Positions 4,806-26,622 of a DNA stretch of 64,000 nt are shown piece after piece. A model generated the notes under the pieces. The model did no database searches, was not told the DNA's origin, and was given only the letters and a program-made list of their open reading frames with translations. Position numbers and translations under genes: made by a program. Position 1 is the stretch's first letter. Every line of letters starts with the position of its first letter. This DNA is from Neoroseomonas terrae (GTDB taxonomy: Bacteria > Pseudomonadota > Alphaproteobacteria > Acetobacterales > Acetobacteraceae), in contig NZ_JAAEDI010000006.1 in the NCBI RefSeq assembly GCF_018129025.1, positions 124,001-188,000 of the forward strand. The letters run 5' to 3'.

Positions 4806-4809
4806 CGCC

Positions 4810-11500: not shown

Positions 11501-11917
11501 ATGAAGCGGACCTATCACGGAAGCTGCCACTGCAAGGCCGTGACCTTCCAGGCCGATATCGACCTCGACCAGGGCACGGCCAAGTGCAACTGCACCTTCT
11601 GCTGGAAGCAGCGCATGTGGAACGCGGGACGGCTCAAGCCCTCCGATTTCCGCCTGCTGTCCGGCGAGGACATGCTCGCCGACTACGGCAAGTCCGGCGA
11701 CTGGGGCGAAACCCATCACCGCTTCTGCAAACGCTGCGGCATCGCCACGCATGGCCATGGCCGCATCGTGCAGATGGGCGGCGAGCCCTTCATGTCCGTG
11801 CATCTCGCCGCGCTGGACGACCTGCCGGTGCCGGATCTGGTCGCGGCGCCCGTCCACTACATGGACGGGCTGCACGACAACTGGATGAATCCGCCGGCCG
11901 AGACGCGGCACCTATAG
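11501..11917 (+). CDS. GFA/CENP-V domain protein
   Basis: A 138-aa protein of the glutathione-dependent formaldehyde-activating (GFA) family. The zinc-binding Cys groups are visible: GSCHCKAV near residue 8, CNCTFCWK near 30 and FCKRCGIATHG near 75. AGGAGCG precedes the ATG. Most GFA proteins are of unknown substrate; spontaneous glutathione-formaldehyde adduct formation has been proposed for the founding member. Its end overlaps the convergent M20 gene by 6 bp. Confidence 0.85.
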   Translation: MKRTYHGSCHCKAVTFQADIDLDQGTAKCNCTFCWKQRMWNAGRLKPSDFRLLSGEDMLADYGKSGDWGETHHRFCKRCGIATHGHGRIVQMGGEPFMSVHLAALDDLPVPDLVAAPVHYMDGLHDNWMNPPAETRHL

Positions 11918-13513
11918 GCGTTCGCCCGCGCCCAACCCGTCGATCGGCGTCGGCACGCACCATTCGTCGCCGCGCGCCGTCGTCACGTATTCCGGCCATT
12001 GCAGGTCGACGGGCGGGACGAAGTCCTTCTCCAGCAGCGGCGGCACCCACTTGCCGCCGCCCACGCCGCCACCGGTCCGCTCGCGCCATTCCGCCTGCGC
12101 GGCATCCAGCAGCCCCGGCTTCGCGGCGAGGTCGAGTAAGGTCAGCGCCATCGTCTTCGCGGCGACGAACATGCCCGGGTCGATCGCCGCCGGCAGCCCT
12201 CCCAGCGCGTTGTAGGTCCACATCGGATAGTCGTAATTGGCATCCGGCACGCGCAGCCGTGGCCGTGCGGTCAGCAACCGCACCGTCGGGCAATGCCAGC
12301 AGAACTCAACATAGTCGTCCGCCGACAGGTGCATCTGCCAGTTCGGCAGGAAGTGGCGCATCCCGGCCTCGAACTCGGCCGGCGTCGTCAGCTTGGTATT
12401 CGCCCCGGCGAAGGGGTCGTCCATCGGTTCCAGGCCGAGATTTTCCTGGATCTCGCGCGCGAAGACCTGGGCTGCGGCCGGGTAGCTCGGCGGCCCGACT
12501 TCCTGGAGATTCGCCCAGGTGGCATCGGTCAGCACGGTATTCGCGAGACCCACGCGCGTCTTCGTCACCCACCGCCAATGCGCCGTGCAGGCGGTGGCCG
12601 CCGCGGCGGAGCGCGCATTGGCCATCAGCACATTGGCGATCTGCTGCGCCATCGGCAGCGACGGCGTGCGCCAGGAATACTGGATCTGCGTGAAGCGCGG
12701 CGCGAGGTTGTCCGAGGTCGCGTCGCCCCCATGCATAATGAACTCGTTCAGCGTCCAGGCGCCGGCGTGGGGGAACATCGCCTCCTTGGTGTATTTCGTC
12801 GTCGTGTACATCAGGCACATCGCGTCGGTCGCACCCGGCGCGCGGGCCGCCGCGTGGCCGACATCGCGGATCGGCAGCAGCGACTTGTCGATCCAGGTCT
12901 CCGGGCTGTCGCAGGTGAAGGTTACGATGCAGGACCAGTAGGCGCCGAACTGCGTCTCGGCCGTCACCGTGTTCTGCAGATGCGGGTGATAGACGACGGC
13001 GGCATCCAGATCGTCGTAGTATCCCTTCGCCGCATGGACGGGCTTCGACCCGCAGACCTTCTCCGCCGGCTCCCCGAACAGCACCAGCCGGCCGGGCGTG
13101 CCGGTCTTCTCCAGCGCGGCCTTGGCGGCCAGGATCGAGGTCAACGCCGCCGTGCCGAGCGAGGAATGCGGATCGGTGTGCCCCGCCGCGTAGGGGTGCA
13201 TGCCCGCGCGCGGTTCCCGTCGCGGGACCACCGCCTGGCAATTGCCGGGCACGGCATCGTATTCCGAGAAGGAGGCCAGCAGCGGCCCGCCCTTCCCCCA
13301 GCGGGCGCAGAAGGCGGTCGGCATGTCGCCGGACCCGGCCTCGACCTCGAACCCTTCGGCGCGCAGCAGCTCGACATAGGCCGCGGCGGATTTGTATTCG
13401 CGCCAGGCGGGTTCGGCGAAACCCCAGATGCGCTCGTTGAAGGCGGACATCCGCCCTTCATTGGCGGCGATCCAATCGAGCGCCGTCCGGCGCAGCGCGG
13501 CGAGGTCAGTCAT
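11912..13513 (-). CDS. M20-family amidohydrolase, AbgB-like
   Basis: A 533-aa metal-dependent amidohydrolase of the M20 family, closest in pattern to AbgB, which cleaves p-aminobenzoyl-glutamate. LASFSEYDAVPG, then AAGHTDPHSSLG (metal His pair) and LFGEPAEKVCGSKP (catalytic/metal Glu) appear in order. It is longer than typical M20 enzymes through its C-terminal third. The start MTDLAALRR follows a G-rich site and excludes an upstream open frame that lies inside the neighbouring gene. It forms a minus-strand group with an isomerase and CoA-transferase genes. The substrate, probably an N-acyl amino acid, is not determinable. Confidence 0.87.
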   Translation of the reverse strand: MTDLAALRRTALDWIAANEGRMSAFNERIWGFAEPAWREYKSAAAYVELLRAEGFEVEAGSGDMPTAFCARWGKGGPLLASFSEYDAVPGNCQAVVPRREPRAGMHPYAAGHTDPHSSLGTAALTSILAAKAALEKTGTPGRLVLFGEPAEKVCGSKPVHAAKGYYDDLDAAVVYHPHLQNTVTAETQFGAYWSCIVTFTCDSPETWIDKSLLPIRDVGHAAARAPGATDAMCLMYTTTKYTKEAMFPHAGAWTLNEFIMHGGDATSDNLAPRFTQIQYSWRTPSLPMAQQIANVLMANARSAAAATACTAHWRWVTKTRVGLANTVLTDATWANLQEVGPPSYPAAAQVFAREIQENLGLEPMDDPFAGANTKLTTPAEFEAGMRHFLPNWQMHLSADDYVEFCWHCPTVRLLTARPRLRVPDANYDYPMWTYNALGGLPAAIDPGMFVAAKTMALTLLDLAAKPGLLDAAQAEWRERTGGGVGGGKWVPPLLEKDFVPPVDLQWPEYVTTARGDEWCVPTPIDGLGAGERL

Positions 13514-14161: not shown

Positions 14162-14791
14162 TCAGGCTTCCACCGGGGCTGCGGTCGCGGCGCGGATATC
14201 GTCGATCGTGACGCCCGGCGCGACGTCCAGCACCTTGAAGGCGGCGCCCGTCGGTTCGAACAGTCCGAGTTCCGTGATGACGCGGTTGACGCGCCCGCGC
14301 GCCGTCACCGGCAGCGAGCATTCCGCCAGCATCCGCGACGTCCCGTCCCGCGTGCGATGCTCCATCATCAGGAACACGTTCTTCGCGCAGGCCGCGAGGT
14401 CCATCGCCCCGCCGATCACCCCGCCCTTCGCGCCCTTCACCTTCCAATTGGCGAAGTCGCGATTGGCCGCGGCCTCATAGGTACCGAGAACCGTCACGTC
14501 GATGCGCCCGCTGCGGATCAGCGCGAAGCTGTCGGCGTGGTCCACGATGGCCGCGCCCGGGGGCAGCGTCACGAAGCGACGGCTGGCGTCGACGAGGTGG
14601 ATATCCTCATGGCCTTCGGCGGCCACGGGGCCGAAGCCGATGACGCCGTTCTCGGCGTGGAAGGTGATCTCCTTCTCGCCCATGTCGACATCGGTGATCA
14701 GCGTCGGCATGCCGACGCCAAGGTTCACGATCCAGCCGTCCTGGAACTCACGCGCCAGGCGCTCGGCCATCTGGGGGCGGGACCAGGGCAT
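14162..14791 (-). CDS. Family I CoA-transferase, subunit B
   Basis: A 209-aa beta subunit of a 3-oxoacid/3-oxoadipate-type CoA-transferase. VNLGVGMPTLI is near residue 22 and the catalytic Glu lies in FHAENGVIGFGP (about 47), where it forms the glutamyl-CoA intermediate. The start overlaps the stop of subunit A by ATGA, so the two subunits are made together. It probably transfers CoA from succinyl-CoA to a 3-oxo acid. Confidence 0.92.
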   Translation of the reverse strand: MPWSRPQMAERLAREFQDGWIVNLGVGMPTLITDVDMGEKEITFHAENGVIGFGPVAAEGHEDIHLVDASRRFVTLPPGAAIVDHADSFALIRSGRIDVTVLGTYEAAANRDFANWKVKGAKGGVIGGAMDLAACAKNVFLMMEHRTRDGTSRMLAECSLPVTARGRVNRVITELGLFEPTGAAFKVLDVAPGVTIDDIRAATAAPVEA

Positions 14792-15525
14792 CAGCGGGTC
14801 TCCTTCAGCGTCGGCCAGATCGCGTCGGGCGCGGGCGGAATGTGGACAAGGCGTTGGACCAGGATGCCGGGCGTGTGCACCTCGTCCGGATCGATCGCGC
14901 CGGCGGGCAGGATCGGTTCCTCGACCTCGACGATCACCAGCTTCGAGGCCATGGCCATGATCGGCCCGAAATTGCGCTGGGCCCGGCGGAAGCGAAGGTT
15001 GCCCGCCTCATCCGCCTGGTAGCAGCGCAGCAGCGCGACATCGCAGGGCAGCGCGTATTCCAGCAGGTACTCGCGACCGTTGATGACCCGCGTCTCCCGT
15101 CCCTCGGCGAGCTGCGTGCCGACGCCGGCTGGCGTGTAGAAGGCCGGCACGCCGGCACCCGCGGCGCGCAGGCGTTCGGCGAGCGTGCCCTGCGGCACCG
15201 TCTCGGCATCCACTTCCCCGCGCTCGTAATACGGCGTGAAGGGCAGCACGTCGGATGCGCGCGGCGCGGCGGTGAAGGAACAGATCACCTTCGCGACCTG
15301 CCCGTTCTCCACCAGCATGCCGATATCGGGGTTGCGTGGCTTGCGCGGGCCGCCCGTGGTGTTGCCGACGCAGACCAGCCGCTTCGCCCCCTGCCGCAGC
15401 AGCGCGGCCGTCAGGTTGAAGGGTGAGCCCGGCAGGGCGAAGCCGCCGAATGCGATGGTCGACCCATCCGCGATGCCGGCGACGGCCTCGTCGAAACTGG
15501 CCACGACCTTGCTGCGTTTGCCCAT
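14791..15525 (-). CDS. Family I CoA-transferase, subunit A
   Basis: A 244-aa alpha subunit of the same CoA-transferase. It shows DGSTIAFGGFALPGSPFNL, the glycine-rich CoA-binding entry, then NTTGGPRKPRNPDIGML and RRAQRNFGPIMAMASK. GGGGAC precedes the ATG. It is the first gene of the minus-strand set 15525 to 11912 and diverges from the small gene at 15699; the 173-bp gap presumably holds both promoters, but I could not fix a convincing -35/-10 pair. Confidence 0.9.
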   Translation of the reverse strand: MGKRSKVVASFDEAVAGIADGSTIAFGGFALPGSPFNLTAALLRQGAKRLVCVGNTTGGPRKPRNPDIGMLVENGQVAKVICSFTAAPRASDVLPFTPYYERGEVDAETVPQGTLAERLRAAGAGVPAFYTPAGVGTQLAEGRETRVINGREYLLEYALPCDVALLRCYQADEAGNLRFRRAQRNFGPIMAMASKLVIVEVEEPILPAGAIDPDEVHTPGILVQRLVHIPPAPDAIWPTLKETR

Positions 15526-15698
15526 GGACACGTCCCCTAACCGTTTGCGGCCATGGTCCGGCGGGAGGGCGGCGCTGTCCAGAGGGGGTGGCCAATGCTG
15601 GCCATCCGCCGTCAACCTCTGGTAAATGTTTTCCTGCCAGAATGGCCAGGGGGCGCGCGACGGTGGCGCCCATCACCCCATCGCGGGAGTGGCTGTTC

Positions 15699-16088
15699 AT
15701 GGCTGGCGGCGGTGTTGAGGCGCCCTTGATGCGCCTCAGCGGCATCGGTGGACGGATCAGCGTCTATGAGGACCGGGTGGTCCTGCAGCGGCGCGGCATC
15801 TTCTTCACGCTGGTGAACCTCGCCTTCCACCTGGAACGCGAAATGGAAAGCGAGATCGTTCTGCGGAACCTCACCGCGGTGCATTTCGTGCGTTCCCTGC
15901 TCTTCGTGCAGTTCCTGCGCTTCAGCTACGCGGGATGTCCGGAGCCGAGCGGCCACTACCTCCGCGATGCCTTTGCCGAGAATGCGTACATGCTTTCCCT
16001 GTTCGACAACCGGCGCCTCGTGAAGGTGCTGCACTGCGTGTCCGAGGCCGCCTTGCGACGTGGCGCCGCGCTGGGGCGCGCGGCATGA
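15699..16088 (+). CDS. Small PH-like domain protein
   Basis: A 129-aa protein of unknown function. GGRISVYEDRVVLQRRG, then IVLRNLTAVHFVRS and FLRFSYAG, follow the strand pattern of bacterial PH-like (bPH/DUF4429-type) domains, which often sit at membranes. No signal or membrane segment is clear. The ATG at 15699 follows GGGAG with 9-nt spacing; further in-frame ATGs exist at 15642 and 15729. It is coupled by ATGA to mlaA, hinting at an envelope or lipid-related role. The domain assignment is by pattern only. Confidence 0.6.
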   Translation: MAGGGVEAPLMRLSGIGGRISVYEDRVVLQRRGIFFTLVNLAFHLEREMESEIVLRNLTAVHFVRSLLFVQFLRFSYAGCPEPSGHYLRDAFAENAYMLSLFDNRRLVKVLHCVSEAALRRGAALGRAA

Positions 16089-16783
16089 GGGCGCTCCGTC
16101 GCGCGCTCCTCCTGCTCCTCCTCACCACCCCCCTCCCCGCCCTGGCCGATGAAGCGTCCTCCTGGCGGGAACGCTTCAACCGGACGATGTTCGCGCTGAA
16201 CCACGACATCGAGGCTGCGGCACAGGTGGCGATCGATGCCGTGCCGGAGGTGCTGCACCTGCCGGAACCGGTGCAGGCCGGACTGCTCAACATGCTGAAC
16301 ACCACGGTGAATGAGCCGATCAGCGCGCTCGGCCACGCCATCACCGGCCGCTATGACCTCGCGGGGCGGCAGATGCGCCGCGTGGGAATCAACCTGGTCG
16401 CCGGCTATGGCGGCTATGTCGACCGCGCCACGGATTACGGCGTGCTCGTGCCGATGATCGATCTCGGCACGGCGCTCTGCGTGCGGGGTGTGGAGGCCGG
16501 GCCGTTCTTCGTGTTGCCGGTGATCGGGCCGCGCACGACGCGGGACGGGCTGGCCGACCTCGGCGCCGCGAACATCGCGATCTACGCAATGGCCGTGCCA
16601 TTCGTCGGCGCGGTCCCCTCGGTGACGATGTTCATCGTCATCGAAGCGATAAGCGAGGTCGCGGCGCTTGCCATGGCGCGCAACTTCGACCCCGTCCAGC
16701 CGACAGGGACGGAGTACGAGGCGGTGCGCGATGCCTATCTCGACCACCGCACGCGGCTGTGCGAGGCGGCGCGCGGCGGCTAG
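16085..16783 (+). CDS. mlaA: MlaA/VacJ-family outer-membrane phospholipid protein
   Basis: A 232-aa MlaA-family protein, the outer-membrane part of the Mla pathway that returns mislocalised phospholipids to the inner membrane. A signal peptide (RALLLLLLTTPLPALA) is followed by ERFNRTMFALNHDIE, NTTVNEPISALGHAITG and VLPVIGPRTTRDGL, all family landmarks. The usual lipobox Cys is absent: the leader ends ALADEA, so it may be a soluble periplasmic or non-lipidated form. Mla inner-membrane genes are not nearby. It converges on the carbonic-anhydrase-like gene with a 4-bp overlap. Confidence 0.88.
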   Translation: MRALRRALLLLLLTTPLPALADEASSWRERFNRTMFALNHDIEAAAQVAIDAVPEVLHLPEPVQAGLLNMLNTTVNEPISALGHAITGRYDLAGRQMRRVGINLVAGYGGYVDRATDYGVLVPMIDLGTALCVRGVEAGPFFVLPVIGPRTTRDGLADLGAANIAIYAMAVPFVGAVPSVTMFIVIEAISEVAALAMARNFDPVQPTGTEYEAVRDAYLDHRTRLCEAARGG

Positions 16784-17688
16784 GCCGGCACCGCCAGGCG
16801 GTGGAACCAGCGCTCGGAGCGGAAGGGCCAGAAACCCTCCGCCCGTGGTTCCAGCCCTTCGACCGATGCGATGCGGGCGGCCCGCGCGCGGGCATCCTGC
16901 TCGCGCAGCGCGCCACCCGACAGCCGCCGGAACAGACGCGCCCCGGCGGCAACGTCGTCGCTGCCGATGCGCCCGCGGGCATCGGCGCGGCTGGCGAGAT
17001 AGGCGGCGACGTCCCGCTCCACCCGGCGGCCACCACCATGGCGCGTGCGTATCTGCCGGGCTTCGCCGGCCGTCAGCCCGTGCTCCCGAACGCCGGCGGC
17101 GAGCAAGGCCCGTTCCTGCGCCTCGTCGGGAAGCGCCCCATCCGCCGTGCGCAGCCGGACCAGCTCGGCGAAGCCTTCCGGATCGCGGCGCGCGGGCACC
17201 GGTCCAGCGACCTCCGCGCGCAGTGCCGCCTGCGGCGCGCAATGCGCGCACGGCAGCACCTGCACAGAACCGTCAAGCGCCATGAGCCCGATCTCGACCT
17301 CCATATCCGGGTGGCGACGGCGCACCTCCGCCGCGGCGCGGTTCATCAGCTCGGCGTGCACGCGCAGTTCCTCGGCGGGGTCATCCGCCAGCCGTCGTCC
17401 GGCCCAGGCATTCACCGCACCGCAGTCGCGATGATTGAGAAAAGTGACCCGCCTGACACCATGAAGTTGCCGGGAGGCGGCCAGGTTCTCCCAGAGCGCC
17501 GCGCCCCAGGCCGGCTGCGCCGCGTTCACCGCCGCGAGCGCCGCGCCGGCGATGCGCATCTCGCTGTACCGTCCCTCGCGGCCCAGCGCGTGCAGCAGCG
17601 CAGACGGTCCCTCGACGAAACGCGGATCGATGCAGGAGACGACGAAGGTGTCGGCCGCCGTGCGCCGTGCATTCTGGTGAACGGTCAT
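16780..17688 (-). CDS. Beta-carbonic-anhydrase-like protein with extra C-terminal domain
   Basis: A 302-aa two-part protein. Residues 1-165 resemble a beta-carbonic anhydrase: VVSCIDPR supplies Cys19 and the Asp21-Arg23 dyad, MRIAGAALAAVN stands where RNAGN is usual, and TFLNHRDCGAV supplies His86 and Cys89, the full Cys/His/Cys zinc set with normal H-x-x-C spacing. Residues 169-302 are a helical, charged extension not part of any carbonic anhydrase I know. It aligns along its length with the 144-aa product at 20570-21004 (FxELVRLxT, ERxLLxxGV, EARxI, RIxxxDxxxAxxFRxxSG, RW). ATGA overlap couples it to the membrane gene upstream. Activity on CO2 is inferred. Confidence 0.75.
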   Translation of the reverse strand: MTVHQNARRTAADTFVVSCIDPRFVEGPSALLHALGREGRYSEMRIAGAALAAVNAAQPAWGAALWENLAASRQLHGVRRVTFLNHRDCGAVNAWAGRRLADDPAEELRVHAELMNRAAAEVRRRHPDMEVEIGLMALDGSVQVLPCAHCAPQAALRAEVAGPVPARRDPEGFAELVRLRTADGALPDEAQERALLAAGVREHGLTAGEARQIRTRHGGGRRVERDVAAYLASRADARGRIGSDDVAAGARLFRRLSGGALREQDARARAARIASVEGLEPRAEGFWPFRSERWFHRLAVPA

Positions 17689-18089
17689 TTCAGCACCTCG
17701 ACATGGGATATGCCGGCCAGCCGGTGATGGATCAGCGACCATGAGAGCCCGGCCGCATAGACCAGGCTGATCACGCCGAGCGGCATGATGGCGAGCCCGT
17801 CGCGGCTGAGACTCCCGACATCCGTCAGCTCGGCGACCGTGACCCAGCCGGAGACGACGGCCACCGAGACCAACGCAACGCCCTTGCGCCCCAGCGTGCC
17901 GAACAGCGTCGCGACGACCGCGGCGTGCACCAGCAGCAGCAGGAGGCCGACGGTCAGCTTCGGCCAGAAGTGACCGGTGCCATCCCGCAGCCAATGCCAG
18001 TAGGACCGGCCGCTCGGGTTGTAGACGGCGAAGACGATGAACAGGCTGAACAACACCCGTGCGAGGCCGCCGCGCCAGTCGAAATGCAT
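17685..18089 (-). CDS. Small four-helix membrane protein
   Basis: A 134-aa protein with four predicted membrane helices (about residues 10-24, 43-65, 71-92 and 98-121). The first loop NPSGRSYWHWLRDG is polar and probably conserved. It resembles small uncharacterised inner-membrane proteins (possibly the DUF6524 type, from memory only). It lies 2 bp after the stop of the 347-aa gene and overlaps the carbonic-anhydrase-like gene by ATGA, so it may be the membrane anchor or partner of that enzyme. Confidence 0.7.
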   Translation of the reverse strand: MHFDWRGGLARVLFSLFIVFAVYNPSGRSYWHWLRDGTGHFWPKLTVGLLLLLVHAAVVATLFGTLGRKGVALVSVAVVSGWVTVAELTDVGSLSRDGLAIMPLGVISLVYAAGLSWSLIHHRLAGISHVEVLK

Positions 18090-18091
18090 CG

Positions 18092-19135
18092 TCAGCGTCC
18101 CGCCACCGGCAGCGGGCAGCCGGCGGGCTGCGTCGTGACGCTCGGCAGGCGCACCGCGATGGCCGCGCGCGCCGTGCCATCCAGCCCGGCGACGAAGGCC
18201 GCTTCGGCGCGGGCGATCGCGTCCAGCGCACGGGCTTCGAAATCGGCGCGGTTCAGCGCCGAATCAACGCGGTTGAGCCCCCAGTCGATCGCCCAGTAGG
18301 CACCGATGCCGCCCGCCGTGCCGATGAGGAAGCCGGATGCGCCGCCCATGGCGAAACCGAGCGCACCACCCGCCGCCAGCAACGAGCCTGCCTCGCTGGC
18401 TCGGAGCGCGACGGCACTGAGCCGCGCCGCCATCGGGCGCATCGACTGCGTGAGGACGGAGGTCGGGTCCGAGCCAGGCTCGACGCCGCTGTCGGACGCG
18501 ACAGGGACGACAGCGGCGGCCAGGTCGTCCGCGACCCCGCGCACGGCGGTGGCAAGGTCGAGCCGTGGCGCCGTCGCCGGGCCCGATCCTGCCCGGGCAT
18601 CGAGGATCGGCCGTACCGCCTCCGTCAACCCGCGCGCCCAGAAGATCTCCAGCATGGCAGCGGCGTGGGCCGCATCCGTGGCCAGGCCATCGGCCATGCC
18701 GGCCGGCGCCAGCACGCGCTGATGGAAGGCGAACCGCATCGGCGCAGCCATGCGCTGCACCAGCGCCTCGGCCCTGACGACGTCCCCTTCCGCCGCGCTG
18801 TCCGCCACGCTGCGCAGCATGGCGCCGAGCATGCGGAAGGAGTTGATGTAGGACTGCACCCAGTCGAAGGCCCAGGCGCCAAAGGCGGGCACGCGCTCGC
18901 GCGCCGCGGCGAAGCGCGCGGCGGCGGCATCGGCGGCGAGCCGCTGCATCAGCGCGCCGCTGTCTTCCGCGGCACGGCCCATCGCCGCGGTGGCGGCGGC
19001 TATGGTTTCTGCCGAGACGATACGCACCACGCAGCGCCCGTCGGGCATCACCAGCGCGACGGTCTCACTTCGCTGCGCCCGCGCCTGCGCAAGCGGCAGC
19101 ACGCCAAGCAGCGCGATCCATGCTACGAGCGGCAA
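18092..19135 (-). CDS. Secreted or membrane-bound helical protein with glycine zipper
   Basis: A 347-aa protein of no family I recognise. A leader (LVAWIALLGVLPLAQARAQ) suggests export. The body is Ala-rich and helical. Near residues 265-295 a glycine-zipper-like hydrophobic stretch (GGALGFAMGGASGFLIG) is followed by AYWAIDWGLNRVDSALN, which could insert in a membrane. The TTG at 19135 is the only in-frame start that keeps the leader; the first ATG (19051) would lose it. Only 24 bp separate it from the divergent gene at 19160. Confidence 0.65.
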   Translation of the reverse strand: MPLVAWIALLGVLPLAQARAQRSETVALVMPDGRCVVRIVSAETIAAATAAMGRAAEDSGALMQRLAADAAAARFAAARERVPAFGAWAFDWVQSYINSFRMLGAMLRSVADSAAEGDVVRAEALVQRMAAPMRFAFHQRVLAPAGMADGLATDAAHAAAMLEIFWARGLTEAVRPILDARAGSGPATAPRLDLATAVRGVADDLAAAVVPVASDSGVEPGSDPTSVLTQSMRPMAARLSAVALRASEAGSLLAAGGALGFAMGGASGFLIGTAGGIGAYWAIDWGLNRVDSALNRADFEARALDAIARAEAAFVAGLDGTARAAIAVRLPSVTTQPAGCPLPVAGR

Positions 19136-19159
19136 CGAGCAGAAACGAGAGCGGCCAGG

Positions 19160-19762
19160 GTGTCCGAGACGACGATCGCGTTTGCCCTCGAAAGCGCCGG
19201 GATGCTGCTGGCGCTCGCTATGGCGCTCGGCGCCACGCGGCTCGGTGCGGCGCAGTTCAACCTGCTGGCTCCGGGAGATGCGGAAGCCGTACCGGTTTTC
19301 CACATGTCGGCGGTGCTCGCCGGGCTGCTGTGCGGCATCGCGCTGCTGATCGTCGCGCCGCATCTCGATGCCTTCGCGCCGCGTGAGATCTTCGCCGAGA
19401 ACTCGGCGTGGTCCGTCGATCTGCGGGAGTTTCTCGCCCGATACGCGCTGCCGCAGGATACGGCGTTCGGAACGCTGGCCGACGCACTTCGTGGCCGCGG
19501 CGACTGGCTCGTGATCGCCCTTGCCTGGGCCTCGGTCGGCGCCGTCGTTTTCGGCTGTCTCGCCGCGCTGCGCTTCTGGCGCGGCTGGAACCGGCTGCGG
19601 GCGCTGCTCGCCTTCCTCAGCCTGACAGCCTGGATCGCGCTGCTGATCGGCTATGTCGCGCATCTTTCGGCCTGGGTCGCAGCGCAGCTCAGCTTCTGGA
19701 TCTTCCTGTTGCTGCTGATCGCGTTGCAGCGCTGGCGTCATCGCAGCCGGGTCGCGCATTAG
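19160..19762 (+). CDS. Orphan four-helix membrane protein
   Basis: A 200-aa protein with four predicted membrane helices (about residues 7-24, 46-68, 110-132 and 140-190, the last probably two closely spaced). A periplasmic or cytoplasmic loop of about 45 residues (DAFAPREIFAENSAWS onward) lies in the middle. No known family recognised. It starts with GTG; an in-frame ATG 42 bp later (19202) is an alternative that keeps the first helix. It is the only plus-strand gene within the minus-strand cluster and converges with the DUF4239 gene, sharing 4 bp. Confidence 0.65.
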   Translation: MSETTIAFALESAGMLLALAMALGATRLGAAQFNLLAPGDAEAVPVFHMSAVLAGLLCGIALLIVAPHLDAFAPREIFAENSAWSVDLREFLARYALPQDTAFGTLADALRGRGDWLVIALAWASVGAVVFGCLAALRFWRGWNRLRALLAFLSLTAWIALLIGYVAHLSAWVAAQLSFWIFLLLLIALQRWRHRSRVAH

Positions 19763-20559
19763 CGGATATCCATCAGCAGGATGAAGGGTCGCGGCGACAG
19801 CAACGGATCGTCGCCGGCAAAGGGAAACGCGAGCTTCAGCGACACAAGCAGCACCCCGCCCACGATGATCGCGATCACCGCCCCCATGCTGTAGTGCACC
19901 GCTTGGCTTCCGCTGCCGATGAACCACTGGAACACCAGCACCGAGACCGAGACCGTCATGATCAGCGCCCAGATCAGCAAGGAAATGGTGCGCGTCCCGA
20001 CCGACAGCCGATCCATCCGCGCCTCGGCCACCTGCGCGACCCAGGCCACGGTGCTCTGCGCCAAGGCCTGCTGCGCCGGGGTCACCGGCTCGGTATCGAA
20101 GAACACGCGGGACAGCCGCGTGAAGGCGCCATCCGAGGTACCAAGCGCCAGGCCATTGGTCAGCCGCGGCCAGTCATGGGTGACGACGGCCTCGGCATAG
20201 TCGCGGATCGCGCCACGCATCGCCTGCCGCGCCTCGCCCTGCTCCGCGCCGCCATAGGTGTCGACCGCGTGGGCCAGCATGTAGAGAGCCCCGCTCTCCT
20301 TCTGCAACGTGTCGCGCGACGTCGTGTAGATGTCCCACGCGCCGACGAGCGTGAGCGCCGCGACGACGGCATACACCTCGACCACGAAGCCGAACTTGAC
20401 CGAACCCACCACGCTGTTCGCCGCGAGTTCCTGCGGCGTGAAGACGGCGAACATCACGGTGCCGACCGTCATCGCGATCAGCACCGGCGCGCCGATGGCG
20501 ACCAGCGCCGCGATCGCCGTGGGCAGCGCGGCGATCTCCTGCGCCATCACGAAATCCAT
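19759..20559 (-). CDS. DUF4239 (bestrophin-like) membrane protein
   Basis: A 266-aa inner-membrane protein with helices at about 14-40, 53-76, 190-213 and 221-245 and a large soluble segment between helices 2 and 3. The central ESGALYMLAHAVDTYGG, RQAMRGAIRDYAEAVVTHDWP and AEARMDRLSV follow the DUF4239 pattern (KESGAL...LR...YAxxVxxxEWP...R). Pfam/InterPro describe this family as bestrophin-like; its biochemical role is not established. GAGGG precedes the ATG and the gene starts 10 bp after the 144-aa gene, so both belong to the operon. Confidence 0.75.
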   Translation of the reverse strand: MDFVMAQEIAALPTAIAALVAIGAPVLIAMTVGTVMFAVFTPQELAANSVVGSVKFGFVVEVYAVVAALTLVGAWDIYTTSRDTLQKESGALYMLAHAVDTYGGAEQGEARQAMRGAIRDYAEAVVTHDWPRLTNGLALGTSDGAFTRLSRVFFDTEPVTPAQQALAQSTVAWVAQVAEARMDRLSVGTRTISLLIWALIMTVSVSVLVFQWFIGSGSQAVHYSMGAVIAIIVGGVLLVSLKLAFPFAGDDPLLSPRPFILLMDIR

Positions 20560-20569
20560 GGCGGCGCCC

Positions 20570-21004
20570 TCAGTCGGCGATCTGGCGATACCAGCGTCGC
20601 GTCCGCAGAATGCGGCCGCTGCGCGCGGGCTTCAGCTCGGCTTCCTCCATCAGCCGCTTGACCCGGCGCTGCGCGTCGGCCGGCGTCAGGTTCCGACCCG
20701 ATCGGGCGCGGTAGAAGGCCACCGCTTTGTCGAAATCCTTCCGCGCGATGCGCTGCCGACGGTCGGCAAGGGTCTTCAGCAACTGCGCGGCGGAAGCGTT
20801 CACCTCATGCTCGAGCGACATGTCCGCCTCGGCCGCCGCCGCACGTACTATGCCACGCGCCTCCTCCAGCCGCAGCCGATACCGTGTCACTCCTTCCTCT
20901 AGCAGGCGCCGCTCTTCCTCCTGGTTCAGGAAGCGACGGCCCTGCGTGTGTAGGCGAACCAGTTCCCCGAAACGTCCCGCATCGGTCCCATCCATCATGG
21001 ACAT
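20570..21004 (-). CDS. Stand-alone copy of the carbonic-anhydrase C-terminal domain
   Basis: A 144-aa soluble, charged, helical protein without signal or membrane segment. From residue 8 to the end it aligns with residues 169-302 of the carbonic-anhydrase-like protein encoded at 16780-17688: RFGELVRLHT against GFAELVRLRT, ERRLLEEGV against ERALLAAGV, EARGI against EARQI, FYRARSGRNLTPADAQ against LFRRLSGGALREQDAR, and a terminal RRWYRQIA against ERWFHRLA. No known domain name fits. GAGG about 7 nt before the ATG supports the start. A regulatory or scaffolding module shared by both proteins is the simplest reading. Confidence 0.72.
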   Translation of the reverse strand: MSMMDGTDAGRFGELVRLHTQGRRFLNQEEERRLLEEGVTRYRLRLEEARGIVRAAAAEADMSLEHEVNASAAQLLKTLADRRQRIARKDFDKAVAFYRARSGRNLTPADAQRRVKRLMEEAELKPARSGRILRTRRWYRQIAD

Positions 21005-21062: not shown

Positions 21063-21776
21063 TCAATGCGCCACCTGCACCACCGGCGGTTCGCGGCGCC
21101 GCATCTGCAATTCCGTTTCCCCATGCAGCGGGGGCGGACCATTCATCCGGTCGCTCAGCCGGTCGATCTGACGCATCAGCCGGCCAGCCTCGGCCGAAAC
21201 CGGAGCGTCGCGCGGCACCAGCACAAGCTTGATCTGCGGCAGCGGATAGAGATCGATCTCGACCCGCTCCACCGACATCTCGCCGATCTCGGAAGCAGAC
21301 AGCACGGCCCCCACGATGCTCCGCTGGAGACGCGACAGCGGGCCGCCCTGACGCTGCGCGTGGCGGTCCAGGTGACGCTCCACATGATCCCGGTCGGCAT
21401 CGCTGAGCTCGCGCGCGCGACCGAAGGTTAGGCGCGAACCGGGAATGAGGCCGATCGTCGTCTCGATCTCCCGTAACCCGTAGCCGGCCACTTCCATCAG
21501 AGACACGAAGTCGTCGCGGTCGCGGATCTGTCCCGGGACGAACCCGGCGGCCTCGCGCGCCGCCTCCGCTGCGCCGCCGCCGGCGCGGAACAGTCCGATG
21601 AAGCCGGTGACGGCGCGCCCAACGCGGTCGAACAAGGTTTCGGCCGGCGGCAGGTCCTGCAACGGCAGGGTCACCACCGCGCGCGTCGGGTACTGCTCGC
21701 CGGATCGCGCAACAGCCGGGGCGGCCGTGCATAGGGCGGTCAGGATCAGCAGCCAGGCTGCCTTGCGGAGACTCAT
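21063..21776 (-). CDS. Secreted protein of unknown function
   Basis: A 237-aa protein with a clear signal peptide (MSLRKAAWLLILTALCTAAPAVA). The mature part is charged, with DADRDHVERHLDRHAQRQ and IGEMSVERVEIDLYPLPQIKLVLVPRD as its most distinctive stretches; no domain recognised. The start at 21776 is preferred because GGAG lies 8 nt upstream; an ATG two codons earlier has only 2-nt spacing. It follows the PstS-like gene by 25 bp and precedes the 144-aa gene by 58 bp. Confidence 0.7.
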   Translation of the reverse strand: MSLRKAAWLLILTALCTAAPAVARSGEQYPTRAVVTLPLQDLPPAETLFDRVGRAVTGFIGLFRAGGGAAEAAREAAGFVPGQIRDRDDFVSLMEVAGYGLREIETTIGLIPGSRLTFGRARELSDADRDHVERHLDRHAQRQGGPLSRLQRSIVGAVLSASEIGEMSVERVEIDLYPLPQIKLVLVPRDAPVSAEAGRLMRQIDRLSDRMNGPPPLHGETELQMRRREPPVVQVAH

Positions 21777-21801
21777 CGTCATCGCTCCGGCTGCGGGGGG
21801 T

Positions 21802-22896
21802 TCATCGGGTTCGGATCGCGGCCATGCGTTCGGCGGCGATGCGCTGCGCGAGGCGCTCGGCGGTCGGCAACGGCACCAGACCGGCCTCACCGAGGTAGCC
21901 GGCGGGACCGACCGCCACTTCGCTGCTCGCCTCGGCCAGGAACTCGGGAATGCCGCGCACCACGCCCACGCCGCCGCGGCTCTGCGCATGCTGCCGCTTG
22001 GCGTAGAGATAGTAGGCGCGCGTCGCCTCATATTCGCCGGCGGCGACGGACTGGCGCGTCGGCACCACGCCGTCCAGCGCCAGCGCCACCAGATTACCGC
22101 CGCTGCGCATCACCTCCTCGAAGGAGGTGACGGCAAGGCTACCGCGCGGGGCGGCGACCAGCCGCAGGGGGACCTCGTCGGCAGGCAACTCCAGCACCCG
22201 GCCATCCGCACGCAGCGTAAGGCAGCGGGCCCTGCGAAGATCAGCCTCGAAGATCATGCGGATCTGCCGCAGGGGCCGGCAGCCCGCTTCGAGCACCGTC
22301 TCCTCGAACAATTCGCGCAACCCGCTGCCCGGCACCGGCAGCAGCACCCGGATCGGCTCCGCGGGCAATCCGACCGCGAGTTGCGACCAGGATAGCGAGC
22401 GATTGCGCTCGAAGCCGCGCTCGGCGGGCGTCTCCGCGGCCAGCGCCTCATAGACCTGCCGTGCGGTGAGGGCCGGCTGCGGGTCCCCACGGCGCACCGC
22501 GAGTACCACCGCGCCGAGCCCGAGGCGCAGTTCCATTGCCTCCTCGACGCCATTCGCCGCGCAGAAGTCGCGCGCAGCGGATGACAGGCGCCGCGACGTC
22601 ACCAGCATATCCGCCATCGCGACGCCGGCCCCCGAGCAGAACAGCTCGACGGCACGAGAAGTCGGCAGGCTCTGCGTCTCCGGCGCCACCGCTTCCGGAT
22701 GCCGCTCGCGGAAACCCTGGACCAGCAGACCCGCGACGCGCTCGGCATTCGTCGCCGCGACGATGGTAAGCCTGTCCCGCAGGACAGCCGGCGCGCCCTG
22801 CCCGAATGCCGACGACGCCAGGAGCGTGACCAGCGTCGCGCTCCCGAACGCCCCCGCGAGCCGCCGGATGGCTTTTGCGCCGACCATCGCCGTCAC
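21802..22896 (-). CDS. PstS-like periplasmic substrate-binding protein
   Basis: A 364-aa PBP-like (PstS/phosphate-binding superfamily) protein with a signal peptide (GSATLVTLLASSAFGQG). LTIVAATNAERVAGLLVQGF opens lobe 1, TSRAVELFCSGAGVAMADM resembles the ligand loop with Ser/Asp residues, and later GYLGEAGLVPLP and an Arg-rich C-terminus close the fold. Pairs of Cys (FCSG, FCAANG, GCRPL, RCLTL) could form disulphides. There are no pstC, pstA or pstB genes here, so it probably acts as a free-standing periplasmic binding or sensing protein. It starts with GTG overlapping the upstream stop (GTGA); an ATG at 22887 is an alternative. Confidence 0.75.
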   Translation of the reverse strand: MTAMVGAKAIRRLAGAFGSATLVTLLASSAFGQGAPAVLRDRLTIVAATNAERVAGLLVQGFRERHPEAVAPETQSLPTSRAVELFCSGAGVAMADMLVTSRRLSSAARDFCAANGVEEAMELRLGLGAVVLAVRRGDPQPALTARQVYEALAAETPAERGFERNRSLSWSQLAVGLPAEPIRVLLPVPGSGLRELFEETVLEAGCRPLRQIRMIFEADLRRARCLTLRADGRVLELPADEVPLRLVAAPRGSLAVTSFEEVMRSGGNLVALALDGVVPTRQSVAAGEYEATRAYYLYAKRQHAQSRGGVGVVRGIPEFLAEASSEVAVGPAGYLGEAGLVPLPTAERLAQRIAAERMAAIRTR

Positions 22897-23657
22897 CCCT
22901 GCCGCGCCCGCGTGGACAGCAGACCAAGGATCGCCTCCTGCAGCGACTGCTCGACTGCGACACGCGCCCGCATTTGAGCAATCCAGCCGGCGAGGAGCGC
23001 CTGCTGATCCTCGGCCAGGGTCGCGACCTCGGTCAGCGCGCCCGGCAGTTCACCGCGGCGCAGATGGTCACGGATGCTCGCCAGCACCGTATCCACCGCG
23101 CTGGGCTCGGCTGGCGCGACGAGGCCGATGCCGGCGAAGGCGGAACGGACCACGTTCACGGTGCGTTCCAGGAATTCCTCGTCCGACGTGGCTCGCGCGG
23201 CAATGGCCGGCGCAACGGCCTCGAAGCGGTCCTGCAGGTCGCGCAGGGATGGCAGGCCGCGTGCGGCATGGCTGCCCAGCACTTCGAGATACAGCGGCGG
23301 CAGCAGTTCGGCGCCATCCAGGGAAAGGATGAGTTGCCATTCGCGCGGCCAGGGTCTGCCATTGCCGATGACCGTTTCCAGATGCAGCAGCGCGCTGACC
23401 AGGCGTTCGCGCACCCCGGCTGTCGGGCCCGAGCGGGGTTCCTCGGCGCGACGCAGCCGCTCGTCCAGCGCGCCGAGCCCATCCTCGATCCGACGCAGCC
23501 GCGCATCGACCGCCGCGGCGGGGCGGGCCGCAGCGCCCGCGGCAGGCGCTTGCCCCAACCCTTCGGACGGCACCACGAGAACGAGCGAGGCCGCCAGCGC
23601 GGCGGCTGCGCCGTTGCGCGCGCGCGGTAATGTCGTCGGGCGGTGTCTGGGCGTCAT
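22893..23657 (-). CDS. Mitofilin/Mic60 C-terminal-like exported protein (copy 2)
   Basis: A 254-aa protein. After a hydrophobic leader (GAAAALAASLVLVVPSEGLG) and a short coiled coil (DARLRRIEDGLGALDERLRRAEE), residues 120-254 follow the pattern of the mitofilin C-terminal domain: AARGLPSLRDLQDRFEAVAP, then a helix pair, RDHLRRGELPGALTEVATL and LLAGWIAQMRARV. Mic60 proteins shape inner-membrane invaginations in alphaproteobacteria and mitochondria. This one lacks the long central coiled coil of true Mic60, so it is a shortened relative. ATG at 23657 is chosen over an upstream TTG because it begins the leader. Confidence 0.62.
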   Translation of the reverse strand: MTPRHRPTTLPRARNGAAAALAASLVLVVPSEGLGQAPAAGAAARPAAAVDARLRRIEDGLGALDERLRRAEEPRSGPTAGVRERLVSALLHLETVIGNGRPWPREWQLILSLDGAELLPPLYLEVLGSHAARGLPSLRDLQDRFEAVAPAIAARATSDEEFLERTVNVVRSAFAGIGLVAPAEPSAVDTVLASIRDHLRRGELPGALTEVATLAEDQQALLAGWIAQMRARVAVEQSLQEAILGLLSTRARQG

Positions 23658-23774
23658 GCGGTGCCGACCTGGAGCGTGCCCGGATGGGTTGATTCCGGTG
23701 CCGCGCTTATCGCCCCGAAGTGGTTTATGGCGGATGAAGGCGGTACTGCGCCGCAGCACGACGCATCGTCCGGC

Positions 23775-24545
23775 TCAGCGATACGCATAGGTCACCATCG
23801 ACGCCGCAACGCGGTCGGCCATGGAATCGAGCGCCATGCGGCGGCGGGCGGCATCCACCCACCCGGACAGGACGGACGCAGCCTCGGCATCGAGGGATTC
23901 GAGCGCGACGATCGAAGCCGGCAGGTCACCGAGCGCCGCGGCGTCGCGCGCCGCTGCGAAGGCATCGCTGCGGCGCCCCTGCAATGCGGTGCGACCTGAC
24001 AGGTATCCACTCATCCGACGCATCATCCGACGGGTCCAGCCTGCCTGCTCCTCCGCCTGCTCCAGTGCCAGCACGCTCCCTGCCAGCGCGTCGAGTTGCA
24101 CCGCCAGGACCTCCCGGCTCGGCGCGCCGGCCGCGCCGGCCTGCAGCGCCGGCTCCAATGCTGCGAGCGCATCGGCCCCGCCCGGCAAGGCGAGCACGGC
24201 GTCAAGCGGCGCCGCATAGGACCCGTCGGCCAGCATCGCCTCACGCAGCGTCAGGCCAGCGCGCATCAGCGCCTCGGTGCCGACGATCTGCCCGCGCCAG
24301 GCGACGAAGCTGCGTTCGGCGCCCGCGAGCCTGTCAACGCGCAGGGCGAGATCCGCCGTCGCGCCGGCGAGATTCGCCTCCGTCATCGCCACACCGGCGA
24401 TGGCCGTGGGAGAGGCTGCCGCGGGCGCGCGTAGCGCCCCCACGCCATAGCCAGCGCCAAAGCCGAGGCAGGCGATCGCGGTCGTCGCGAACGCCAGGCG
24501 GTGCCAGCCGGCGGCGGCTGGCGGGGCGTCATCGGTGGTGGACAA
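23775..24545 (-). CDS. Mitofilin/Mic60 C-terminal-like membrane protein (copy 1)
   Basis: A 256-aa protein with one N-terminal membrane helix (LAFATTAIACLGFGAGYGVG), and so is probably inner-membrane anchored with a periplasmic domain. The domain follows the mitofilin C-terminal pattern: LREAMLADGSYAAPLDAV, ALEPALQAGAAGAPSREVL, then AARDAAALGDLPASIVALESL and VLSGWVDAARRRMALD. It starts with TTG at 24545 after GGAGA with 6-nt spacing; an upstream in-frame TTG (24575) lacks a site. It is first in the minus-strand cluster and diverges from the TPR gene over 147 bp that should hold the operon promoter. Confidence 0.62.
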   Translation of the reverse strand: MSTTDDAPPAAAGWHRLAFATTAIACLGFGAGYGVGALRAPAAASPTAIAGVAMTEANLAGATADLALRVDRLAGAERSFVAWRGQIVGTEALMRAGLTLREAMLADGSYAAPLDAVLALPGGADALAALEPALQAGAAGAPSREVLAVQLDALAGSVLALEQAEEQAGWTRRMMRRMSGYLSGRTALQGRRSDAFAAARDAAALGDLPASIVALESLDAEAASVLSGWVDAARRRMALDSMADRVAASMVTYAYR

Positions 24546-24692
24546 GGTCGGTCTCCGCTGCGTTGGCGGCAACAAAGACCAACAAGATGGAGAAAGCCTT
24601 ACGGCGGGAGGTGACGACGACGCGCGTCATCAACCACGGCTTAAGACGGATGCAGGAAGCTGCCGGCCGGATCGCCCGGGAACCCCGACAGC

Positions 24693-25805
24693 ATGGAACT
24701 CGCCACCATCGGCCTTCTCTCCGCCATCGTCTTCGGCCTGATCGCCGGCGATGCGGTGATCAGCGCCAATACCATGGCGGTGGGCATCGGCCTGCCGCCT
24801 GCCGTTCAGCAATCCGGCCTCACCCGCCAATCCGCGGAGGAGATCTTCGTCACCGAGCTCTCGCGCATCGCCGCCATCCCGTCCGGCGTGCCGGTGCCGG
24901 TGCCCCGCGTCTCCTCCCGCCGCACCGTGATCGGCGCGCTCGCGGAACCGCTGAAGCTCACCGACGTCACCATCGCCTTGCAGGACCTCTTTGGCCTCGA
25001 GCCGATCCGCGTCTCCGCGACTGTCATCCAGCGCGGCGATGGGCTCGTGATGGAGACCATCCTCGCGCAGCAGGGAAGGCCGCTGCAGCGCCTGTCCTTC
25101 GAGCGGCCGGACAGCGACGCGGTCGCGCTGATCCGTCACGCCGCCATCAGCACCTTCGCCGAGATCGCGCCCTTCCGCGTCACCCTCGCCCGGCTGCGCG
25201 ACCTGCTGCAGGATCCGGCGATCGACGTCGCCCCGATCCGCGCCCAGGCGGAGCGCATGCTCCGCCGCGAATGGGGGCCCGACACGGATATCGAGAGATC
25301 CGCGCTGCACAGCCTGGTCTCCGTGCTCGCCCTGCTCCACGGCGATGTCGCCGGCGCACGGGCGGAGATAGCCCGCGCCGATGCATTCCAGGATGCACTC
25401 GCCACCGCGAGACCATTCTACGCGCTGAATGCCGCCTTCATTGCCGTGCAACAGGGTGATCAGCGGCTCGCGGAACGCGAACTCGCCCGCGCCGCGCAGG
25501 TGCCGATGCGCCAGATCATTCCATCCTTCCCTGCTTACCTCGAAGTCCAGCGCGGGCTGATCGACTGGGCGGATGGCAAGGTGGATGCCGCCGATGCCGC
25601 CTTCCGCCGCGCGCTGGAGGTCGATCCGCGGAATCTCGCGGCCCAGATCTATCGCCACTGGATCGCCCGCGGCCGTGACGGCGCGCCGCCGAACGCGGCG
25701 GACCGCCCACCGGTGCTCACATCCGTCTCGCCGCAGATCCCTGGGCTGATGGCCTCGGTATTCCTGCTCGATCCGCGCGATCGGACGCTGTCGCGCGCGC
25801 GCTGA
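24693..25805 (+). CDS. TPR-like membrane-anchored protein
   Basis: A 370-aa protein. The N-terminus (LATIGLLSAIVFGLIAGDAV) is a membrane anchor or uncleaved signal. Residues 50-200 form a mixed domain without a recognised name; residues 210-330 look like tetratricopeptide helices (LLHGDVAGARAEIARADAF, AVQQGDQRLAERELARAAQ, DAADAAFRRALEVDPRNLAA). TPR scaffolds bring proteins together. It diverges from the mitofilin-like operon and its end is 10 bp from the convergent anti-sigma-type kinase gene. Confidence 0.7.
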   Translation: MELATIGLLSAIVFGLIAGDAVISANTMAVGIGLPPAVQQSGLTRQSAEEIFVTELSRIAAIPSGVPVPVPRVSSRRTVIGALAEPLKLTDVTIALQDLFGLEPIRVSATVIQRGDGLVMETILAQQGRPLQRLSFERPDSDAVALIRHAAISTFAEIAPFRVTLARLRDLLQDPAIDVAPIRAQAERMLRREWGPDTDIERSALHSLVSVLALLHGDVAGARAEIARADAFQDALATARPFYALNAAFIAVQQGDQRLAERELARAAQVPMRQIIPSFPAYLEVQRGLIDWADGKVDAADAAFRRALEVDPRNLAAQIYRHWIARGRDGAPPNAADRPPVLTSVSPQIPGLMASVFLLDPRDRTLSRAR

Positions 25806-25815
25806 CGTCGCCGGG

Positions 25816-26274
25816 TCAGTCCGGCGGCGACGCAGAGCGCCAGAAAACGGAGAAGTGGTTGCGTCCGCCGCGTCGGCGGTACCGCTGCCAACTCGTCATC
25901 CGCATCACGAGGTGGATGCCGAGGCCGCCCACCGGCCGCCCTTCCACCGAGGCGCCGGTGTCGGGAGGCTCGCACAGGGTCGGATCGAAGGGGATGCCGT
26001 CATCCTCGGTCGAGATGAGCACCCCGAGCCCTTCCCTGCCCCGCCAAATGCCGGCCGACAGGGCAAAGACGCCAGGTACGACGCCCTTCGGCCACGCATG
26101 GCGCGCGACATTCGTCAGCATTTCCTCGGCGACGACAAGGCAGGCGGCTGCACGGCTCGGCGGGCATCCGGCCTCCGCCAGCGCGGCCTCCAGCCAGTCG
26201 AGCGCCGCCGCGATATCCGCCGCGTCGCGGCAGCAGGCGCGCTCGATCCGGCGCGGCAGGGCCGTGGCGGTCAT
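25816..26274 (-). CDS. RsbW-like serine kinase / anti-sigma-type ATPase
   Basis: A 152-aa HATPase_c_2 protein of the RsbW/SpoIIAB class. It shows the N-box VVAEEMLTNVARHAW, the G1-like EDDGIPFDP and the G2-like GGLGIHLVMRM. Such kinases phosphorylate a STAS partner on Ser or Thr and bind a sigma factor or other target when the partner is phosphorylated. It overlaps the STAS gene by ATGA and lies downstream of a SpoIIE phosphatase, a complete partner-switching set. No sigma factor or PhyR-type protein is encoded in the window, so the output is unknown. Confidence 0.9.
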   Translation of the reverse strand: MTATALPRRIERACCRDAADIAAALDWLEAALAEAGCPPSRAAACLVVAEEMLTNVARHAWPKGVVPGVFALSAGIWRGREGLGVLISTEDDGIPFDPTLCEPPDTGASVEGRPVGGLGIHLVMRMTSWQRYRRRGGRNHFSVFWRSASPPD

Positions 26275-26609
26275 CCGCCGACGAGGCGACGCGCATCGGC
26301 CTCCTCGGCACCGATCGCTAGCACCTTCGAGAAGCCGGAGATGTCGAACACCTCCTGCACCGCCGAAGGCAGGCCGAACAGGGCGAAGCGTCCCGCCGAT
26401 GACCGCGCGCGCTTCGCCGCCATCAGCACAACACGCAACCCCGCCGAGGAAACGTAGGCCACGTCGCGCATATCGAGGATGACGCGCGCCGCCGGGTCCG
26501 CGAAGCTGCCGAGGATCGTGCCCTCCGCCTTGCCGGTCGATTCATTGTCGAGCCGGCCCTTCAGCCTGTGCAGCACGACGCCATCGCTCGCCTGCGTATA
26601 GATGTCCAT
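26271..26609 (-). CDS. STAS-domain anti-sigma-factor-antagonist-like protein
   Basis: A 112-aa single STAS domain of the RsbV/SpoIIAA type. VILDMRDVAYVSSAGLRVVL holds the phosphorylatable Ser in the usual place. In such systems the kinase phosphorylates this protein and the PP2C phosphatase restores it. It is coupled downstream to the kinase by ATGA and lies 13 bp after the phosphatase gene. Confidence 0.92.
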   Translation of the reverse strand: MDIYTQASDGVVLHRLKGRLDNESTGKAEGTILGSFADPAARVILDMRDVAYVSSAGLRVVLMAAKRARSSAGRFALFGLPSAVQEVFDISGFSKVLAIGAEEADARRLVGG

Positions 26610-26622
26610 CCTGCGTCTCCTC

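Follow-up and report, generated by a model that had tools for sequence, protein, structure and literature searches.

The window analyzed here is a 64,000-nucleotide stretch of the Neoroseomonas terrae genome (Alphaproteobacteria, Acetobacteraceae; contig NZ_JAAEDI010000006.1, positions 124,001 to 188,000), and its subject is a small helical, previously unnamed protein module that is found in two genes of one cluster. A fused protein of 302 amino acids (16780 to 17688, minus strand) consists of a beta-carbonic-anhydrase-like domain (residues ~14 to 152) followed by the module (residues 169 to 302; 16783 to 17184, minus strand), which was recognized by BLASTP, profile-profile comparison, and an AlphaFold model. 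A lone copy of 144 amino acids (20570 to 21004, minus strand) comprises two helix-strand-helix-helix units (residues 8 to 64 and 65 to 126) and a basic-aromatic tail with W138. An earlier note on this DNA had described one module occurring once alone and once fused to a zinc enzyme in the same gene cluster. That arrangement was borne out, the fusion partner being a zinc-enzyme-like domain.

The homology of the module in the two proteins was confirmed. BLASTP aligned residues 169 to 299 of the fused protein with residues 8 to 143 of the lone protein at 32% identity over 138 columns (E = 3e−7 in a single comparison), and the alignment contains nine gap positions, the longest gap being seven residues, so that the end-to-end alignment without large gaps claimed in the earlier note holds. 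When the organism's own genome (5.77 Mb) was queried with the lone protein, the fused protein was found at E = 6e−7 and the next match at E = 0.23; the reciprocal query found the lone protein at E = 9e−7 and nothing further at E = 10. The comparison of hidden Markov model profiles that the note had proposed was significant, with seven lone proteins matching five fused domains at a probability of 99.5% and E = 5e−23 over 134 columns (E = 6e−24 in a repeat run). As controls, eight other families of the cluster gave E = 0.14 or worse, reversed columns gave E = 0.65, and the lowest E value among 50 column shuffles was 0.048.

AlphaFold models were built from sequences of the window and of loci in named genomes only (49 for the lone copy and 24 for the fused copy) and had mean pLDDT confidence scores of 89.4 and 88.0, respectively. 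The first half of the lone model contains helix 8 to 20, strand 25 to 26, helix 28 to 40, helix 46 to 59, and strand 63 to 64, and the second half contains helix 65 to 79, strand 85 to 86, helix 88 to 102, and helix 108 to 121, followed by the tail with W138. In the fused copy, the predicted helices (170 to 181, 189 to 203, 207 to 217, 220 to 234, 243 to 256, 263 to 276, and 293 to 299) follow the order of those in the lone copy, and a low-confidence stretch (153 to 163) separates the module from the carbonic-anhydrase-like domain. The expectation of a common predicted fold is supported by the order of helices only. The two halves of the module are repeat-like by secondary structure, and their hhalign match is weak (E = 0.017, probability of 2.7%); an internal duplication is suggestive only. 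All 83 distinct module copies carry a net positive charge and a tryptophan near the C terminus, which lies within a mostly basic tail, and the median isoelectric point (pI) is 10.5 to 10.9 in three groups of copies. The lone and fused proteins of the window have no hydrophobic stretch, and both are predicted to be soluble.

As the earlier note had held, the module lies outside nameable families. No fitting model was found in Pfam or NCBIfam, where the best single-member match, DUF4890 (E = 0.006 in one of seven members), was set aside. PDB sequences gave no convincing match to the module, and none of the Foldseek matches to PDB structures (85 at E ≤ 10) or viral models (161) reached E = 0.001. 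VIA structural look-alikes, among them ribosomal L11/L12-like proteins, RecX, winged helices, and three-helix RNA/DNA-binding domains, scored Z 4 to 7 over ~60 residues (best, Z 7.0 over 62 residues), a range that the tool rates as uninformative. An EF-hand-like or TerB-like loop in the second unit was considered and found no support from any tool.

The enzyme-like part of the fused protein (residues 14 to 152; 17233 to 17649, minus strand) carries both zinc motifs of a beta-class carbonic anhydrase, CxDxR (C19, D21, and R23) and HxxC (H86 and C89). C19, D21, R23, and C89 are invariant in the alignment of fused proteins, and H86 is nearly so. Across 35 beta-type copies, repeated places included, CxDxR and RDCGA are present in 35/35 and the zinc-ligand histidine in 33/35. 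The predicted domain resembles beta-class enzymes (PF00484 and PF20393) in a Foldseek search as well: the best match was 1g5c, a Cab-type beta-carbonic anhydrase (E = 4.5e−5), TM scores to the target were 0.37 to 0.53, and rows 1 to 48 of the best 50 were carbonic anhydrases. It differs from them in being short (~150 amino acids) and in bearing the new C-terminal module. At 14430 to 15335 of locus L121, from genome G269, the fused protein reads NYRDCGA with Tyr for His; G269 also holds a second, diverged module locus (L109) with no bestrophin-like gene nearby.

The profile search of alphaproteobacterial genomes suggested in the earlier note placed the module in some Alphaproteobacteria only. 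Copies were found in 7 of 150 genomes sampled from the family, 23 of 299 from the order, and 9 of 385 from the class, while only the organism's own genome, which is included in each count, matched among 398 from the phylum; the family, order, and class searches scored only the best 10 to 26 first-look candidates per genome. A scan of named genomes returned 27 module loci, with titles including Neoroseomonas, Falsiroseomonas, Roseomonas, Humitalea, and metagenome-assembled genomes; Humitalea rosea DSM 24525 and Falsiroseomonas stagni DSM 19981 are cultured carriers. The fused gene is visible in 22 of them (once cut by a contig end), each time with a lone copy, and the other five contigs stop before the place where it would stand. 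In the order sample, 17 genomes in five genera of Acetobacteraceae have the beta cluster type, 15 of them with a second copy that lies in an open reading frame of at least 360 amino acids; the remaining two are G218, with contig-edge pieces only, and G276, where no second copy was found. A beta-type carbonic-anhydrase-like domain with the beginning of a module after it also lies at a contig edge in G702, of family f56 (same frame by coordinates, open frame of 224 amino acids). Eleven genomes hold lone copies with no fused copy found, and a DUF6524 gene lies alongside in nine of these. Because lone copies occur in genomes where no fused copy was found, the module appears to have a job apart from the enzyme.

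A second kind of fusion was found in f107, an alphaproteobacterial family outside the Acetobacteraceae. At locus L106 of G731, a class-level relative, the module forms the N-terminal part of a 298-amino-acid protein. The C-terminal part of this one tested protein has its best PDB match in 3h51, a putative CaMKII-association-domain protein (E = 4.9e−11), and its next best in a ketosteroid isomerase (E = 7e−4), which places it closer to CaMKII-association (COG4875) domains than to other NTF2-like proteins; in Pfam it gave only SnoaL-like matches under the cut-offs. PMC8395977 reports that the four domains of the diatom iota-carbonic anhydrase are more than 40% identical to 3H51 and lists the active residues, and PMC8132391 gives His-His-Ser-Ser as a motif common to COG4337 and COG4875 proteins. 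In f107, 10 of 36 genomes matched, nine of them with the module and an iota-like domain fused and the tenth, G751, in the iota-like part only. The catalytic Thr, Tyr-Phe (spacing of 15), and HHSS are kept in 9/9 of these fusions, which together with the L106 match to 3h51 constitutes their likeness to the iota class.

The order of domains is reversed between the two types: the enzyme precedes the module in the beta type and comes after it in the iota type. Prokaryotic iota-carbonic anhydrases are predicted, according to PMC8132391, to be exported by way of an N-terminal signal peptide, whereas in the f107 fusions the module takes the place of that signal; by eye, six complete rows show no hydrophobic leader, and the module occupies the N terminus. 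The lack of a leader is in line with a cytoplasmic site. The iota fusion was seen only in f107, and the window itself has none. Since all nine iota-fusion genomes also hold a separate lone module, lone and enzyme-fused modules occur with two unrelated classes. Judged from sequence, then, the same module carries two unrelated carbonic-anhydrase-like domains, beta in the Acetobacteraceae and f56 and iota in f107, and the lone-plus-fused arrangement with an iota-type domain in another family is what is new here. In a phylogenetic tree, from which repeated places (11 loci), stretches of <100 residues, and identical domains were dropped, the fused modules form one clade each (beta, 23 rows, support of 100/100; iota, nine rows, 99/85).

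Gene context was compared at 26 loci by clustering, with BLASTP, the genes called up to 11 kb from the lone module; the loci form 15 groups, which represent 14 genera, one of them with two loci and counted as two groups. The recurring order is B, a substrate-binding-protein-like gene, C, the lone module, a bestrophin-like gene, D, DUF6524, and the fused gene, with small insertions and, at some loci, D or B not called. DUF6524 is present in 13/15 groups, B in 11, a membrane protein family in 10, a small glycine-zipper-like protein in 9, D, C, and the substrate-binding-like protein in 8 each, and the bestrophin-like protein in 7. The bestrophin-like gene (PF14023) was then sought in 34 of the 39 known module-bearing genomes, that is, in all but G175, G218, G261, G276, and G626. 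It is located no more than 15 kb from the lone module in 14/14 beta-type and 7/9 iota-type genomes (21/23 with a fusion) and in 1 of 11 lone-only genomes (G421, where the contig stops beside the gene). In G390, another lone-only genome, the module likewise lies at a contig end, and in G745, of the iota type, the bestrophin-like gene is on another contig, that of the module being short. The bestrophin-like gene is associated with the fusion in both types, beta and iota, over few independent gains.

The window follows this order on its minus strand. The run begins with A (23775 to 24575), which is distantly similar to B (22893 to 23759). B has one hydrophobic span and a weak similarity to the mitofilin C terminus (PF09731, E = 0.0012, 18.3 versus a curated cut-off of 27.4 bits). 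The substrate-binding-protein-like gene (21802 to 22896; PF12849, PstS-like, E = 9.7e−24) comes next, followed by C (21063 to 21782), with an N-terminal hydrophobic stretch and no Pfam family. Beyond the lone module are the gene for the 266-amino-acid bestrophin-like membrane protein (19759 to 20559; E = 9.4e−34, 117.4 versus a cut-off of 32 bits), D (18092 to 19138), and the gene for a 134-amino-acid DUF6524 membrane protein (17685 to 18089; E = 3e−23) that shares four bases with the beginning of the fused gene. D, called from homologues and the reading frame, has one N-terminal hydrophobic stretch; its start is uncertain and its end coordinate was set by eye. The minus-strand open reading frame at 18092 to 19741 is overextended, its upstream part being antisense to a plus-strand gene at about 19166 to 19762 for a membrane protein of about five hydrophobic spans, which by eye resembles L116 8615 to 9178 of the family found in 10/15 groups. 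Also on the plus strand are a small protein (15729 to 16088; no Pfam match at 0.01, relatives near the module in 5/15 groups), an MlaA-family lipoprotein (16085 to 16783; E = 8.1e−26) convergent with the fused gene, and a divergent tetratricopeptide repeat protein (24693 to 25805) with relatives near the module in 6/15 groups.

Among 26 scanned relatives of B (A8), 14 show mitofilin similarity at E ≤ 0.01 (best, E = 7e−11). This recalls the alphaproteobacterial Mic60/mitofilin system described in PMC9764997, and the B proteins hint at a mitofilin-like family bound to the cluster, besides Mic60. The B protein of the window differs in falling below the curated cut-off, and its likeness is one of sequence.

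We tentatively favor, at a little short of an even chance, a model in which the module acts as a basic adaptor, tethering carbonic anhydrase in the cytoplasm to a membrane assembly, beside a bestrophin-like protein that would let bicarbonate pass. The module would be a soluble, all-helical adaptor of two similar-looking units, and its high pI would suit an acidic membrane or protein surface. The lone copy would be a regular part of a membrane or envelope assembly with DUF6524, mitofilin-like coiled-coil proteins, exported proteins, and MlaA-type lipid-transport parts. The duplicated module, fused to a carbonic anhydrase, would dock the enzyme onto the same assembly from the cytoplasmic side, and the adjoining bestrophin-like protein would let bicarbonate through, with CO2/HCO3− conversion at a membrane site. 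Two lineages may have filled one need by recruiting unrelated enzymes, the beta type in the Acetobacteraceae and f56 and the iota type in f107. The fusion to two unrelated enzymes points to a role of the module in bringing a CO2/bicarbonate enzyme to a membrane machine. The purpose is likely local pH control or the supply of bicarbonate to carboxylases at the membrane site; like the docking, the membrane partner, the cytoplasmic site, catalysis, and bicarbonate flow, this is something we infer.

A partial analogy is offered by the thylakoid of Chlamydomonas, where a bestrophin-like membrane protein (BST1-3) is paired with a carbonic anhydrase (CAH3); according to PMC10096703, HCO3− transport by BST1-3 still awaits confirmation. 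No homology is claimed, and the bacteria differ in that a RuBisCO family was matched, weakly, in 1/26 beta- or iota-type genomes. A wider reading, in which the module is a new carbonic anhydrase docking domain of a new alphaproteobacterial envelope machine, with Mla-type parts, mitofilin-like scaffolds, DUF6524, and a bestrophin-like channel forming a RuBisCO-free CO2/bicarbonate membrane patch with one socket for two unrelated carbonic anhydrases, strikes us as doubtful.

Several observations weigh against the tethering model. The carbonic-anhydrase-like domain scores below curated Pfam cut-offs (PF20393, 17.6 versus 30 bits; PF00484, 13.6 versus 25.7 bits), which is why we call it beta-carbonic-anhydrase-like, and a search of PDB sequences with a profile of the fused proteins yielded no carbonic anhydrase at E = 0.1; only the predicted fold and the motifs suggest that identity. 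Tyr replaces the zinc-ligand His in 2/35 copies, which come from one genome, G269, L121 and L148 being the same place. G744 carries the iota fusion and no PF14023 gene was found in it; the PF14023 profile matched no bestrophin structure in the PDB, the family being known here by its Pfam name. Because the module-bearing genomes are related, the independent events are few, and because a limited number of candidates was scored per genome, a diverged fused copy could be missed in a "lone-only" genome. Finally, a tree constrained to hold the beta and iota fused modules together was not rejected (p-AU = 0.43), so both fusions may stem from one ancestral duplication, after which one enzyme on the module was exchanged for an unrelated one.

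The earlier note had proposed that the two proteins assemble together or compete for one partner, and this is compatible with the data. Alternatively, the module may be a regulatory or oligomerization domain of the carbonic anhydrase, with the lone copy forming mixed assemblies with the fused one and tuning its activity and no membrane tether. The presence of a lone copy beside the fused one in 22/22 named loci and in 9/9 iota-type genomes is what such a regulator would predict, as are the predicted solubility and like helix order of the two proteins. The 11 genomes with a lone copy and no fused copy found, nine of them with DUF6524 beside it, argue against it, and we consider this explanation unlikely.

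The high pI and the conserved Trp in a mostly basic tail could instead mean that the three-helix units and the tail bind a polyanion, be it nucleic acid, polyphosphate, or acidic lipid head groups, and that the fusion delivers the carbonic anhydrase there. Three-helix RNA/DNA-binding domains are among the weak look-alikes (Z 4 to 7 over ~60 residues), but such matches fall in the tool's uninformative range, and the recurring neighbor families are mostly membrane or exported proteins. We regard polyanion binding as quite improbable.

Slightly less probable again is that the carbonic-anhydrase-like domains lack catalytic activity or use a different substrate and have a structural role in the assembly. 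Folds of this kind are also used for other reactions, and the scores below Pfam cut-offs, the lack of a carbonic anhydrase among PDB profile matches, and the Tyr in one genome would agree with this. However, the zinc-ligand His is kept in 33/35 and CxDxR and RDCGA in 35/35 beta-type copies, the iota residues are kept in 9/9, and the beta and iota classes are not known to have any reaction but CO2 hydration in common.

Two physiological links were considered and rejected, using scans of 38 of the 39 known module-bearing genomes (all but G626) and 13 same-genus genomes without a module match; the 17 beta-cluster-type genomes include G276 and G218. The RuBisCO family PF00016 was found in 1/17 beta-type genomes (weakly, E = 4e−15), in 0/9 of the iota type, and not in G702, compared with 8/11 lone-only and 7/13 module-free genomes. 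As almost no genome of the fused types has RuBisCO, a classical CO2-concentrating mechanism for carbon fixation does not apply. A link to photosynthesis does not hold as a rule either, PF00124 being present in 11/17 beta-type, 4/9 iota-type, 3/11 lone-only, and 11/13 module-free genomes and not in G702.

In the open-access literature, preprints aside, nothing was found on DUF6524, on DUF4239 with carbonic anhydrase, or on bestrophin with carbonic anhydrase and Alphaproteobacteria. If the model is right, this small module, which recurs on carbonic anhydrases of two unrelated classes and has a bestrophin-like gene as its neighbor, would serve as a natural recruitment tag for such enzymes and as a way into an extensive, uncharacterized envelope gene cluster. 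It would also raise the question of why bacteria mostly lacking RuBisCO would place bicarbonate conversion at the membrane.

Some further genes at or near these loci deserve mention. Near the cluster, L046 912 to 2579 and L107 16391 to 18028 encode proteins that, by eye, resemble Na/phosphate cotransporters. Locus L110, which has a lone copy only, encodes a fusion of an ATP-binding cassette (ABC) ATPase with an MlaE permease (11800 to 13353), a ParA/MipZ-like ATPase (14929 to 15639), and an HlyD-type protein (4517 to 5845), with a resistance-nodulation-division-type pump, named by eye, next to these genes; its sequences hint at a lipid-transport-like envelope system. In the window, positions 25816 to 28662 (minus strand) encode a SpoIIE-type phosphatase with a weak HAMP match, a STAS protein, and an RsbW-like HATPase_c_2 protein, which form a partner-switching module; the same set adjoins the cluster in G279 and G303 (L116 and L117).

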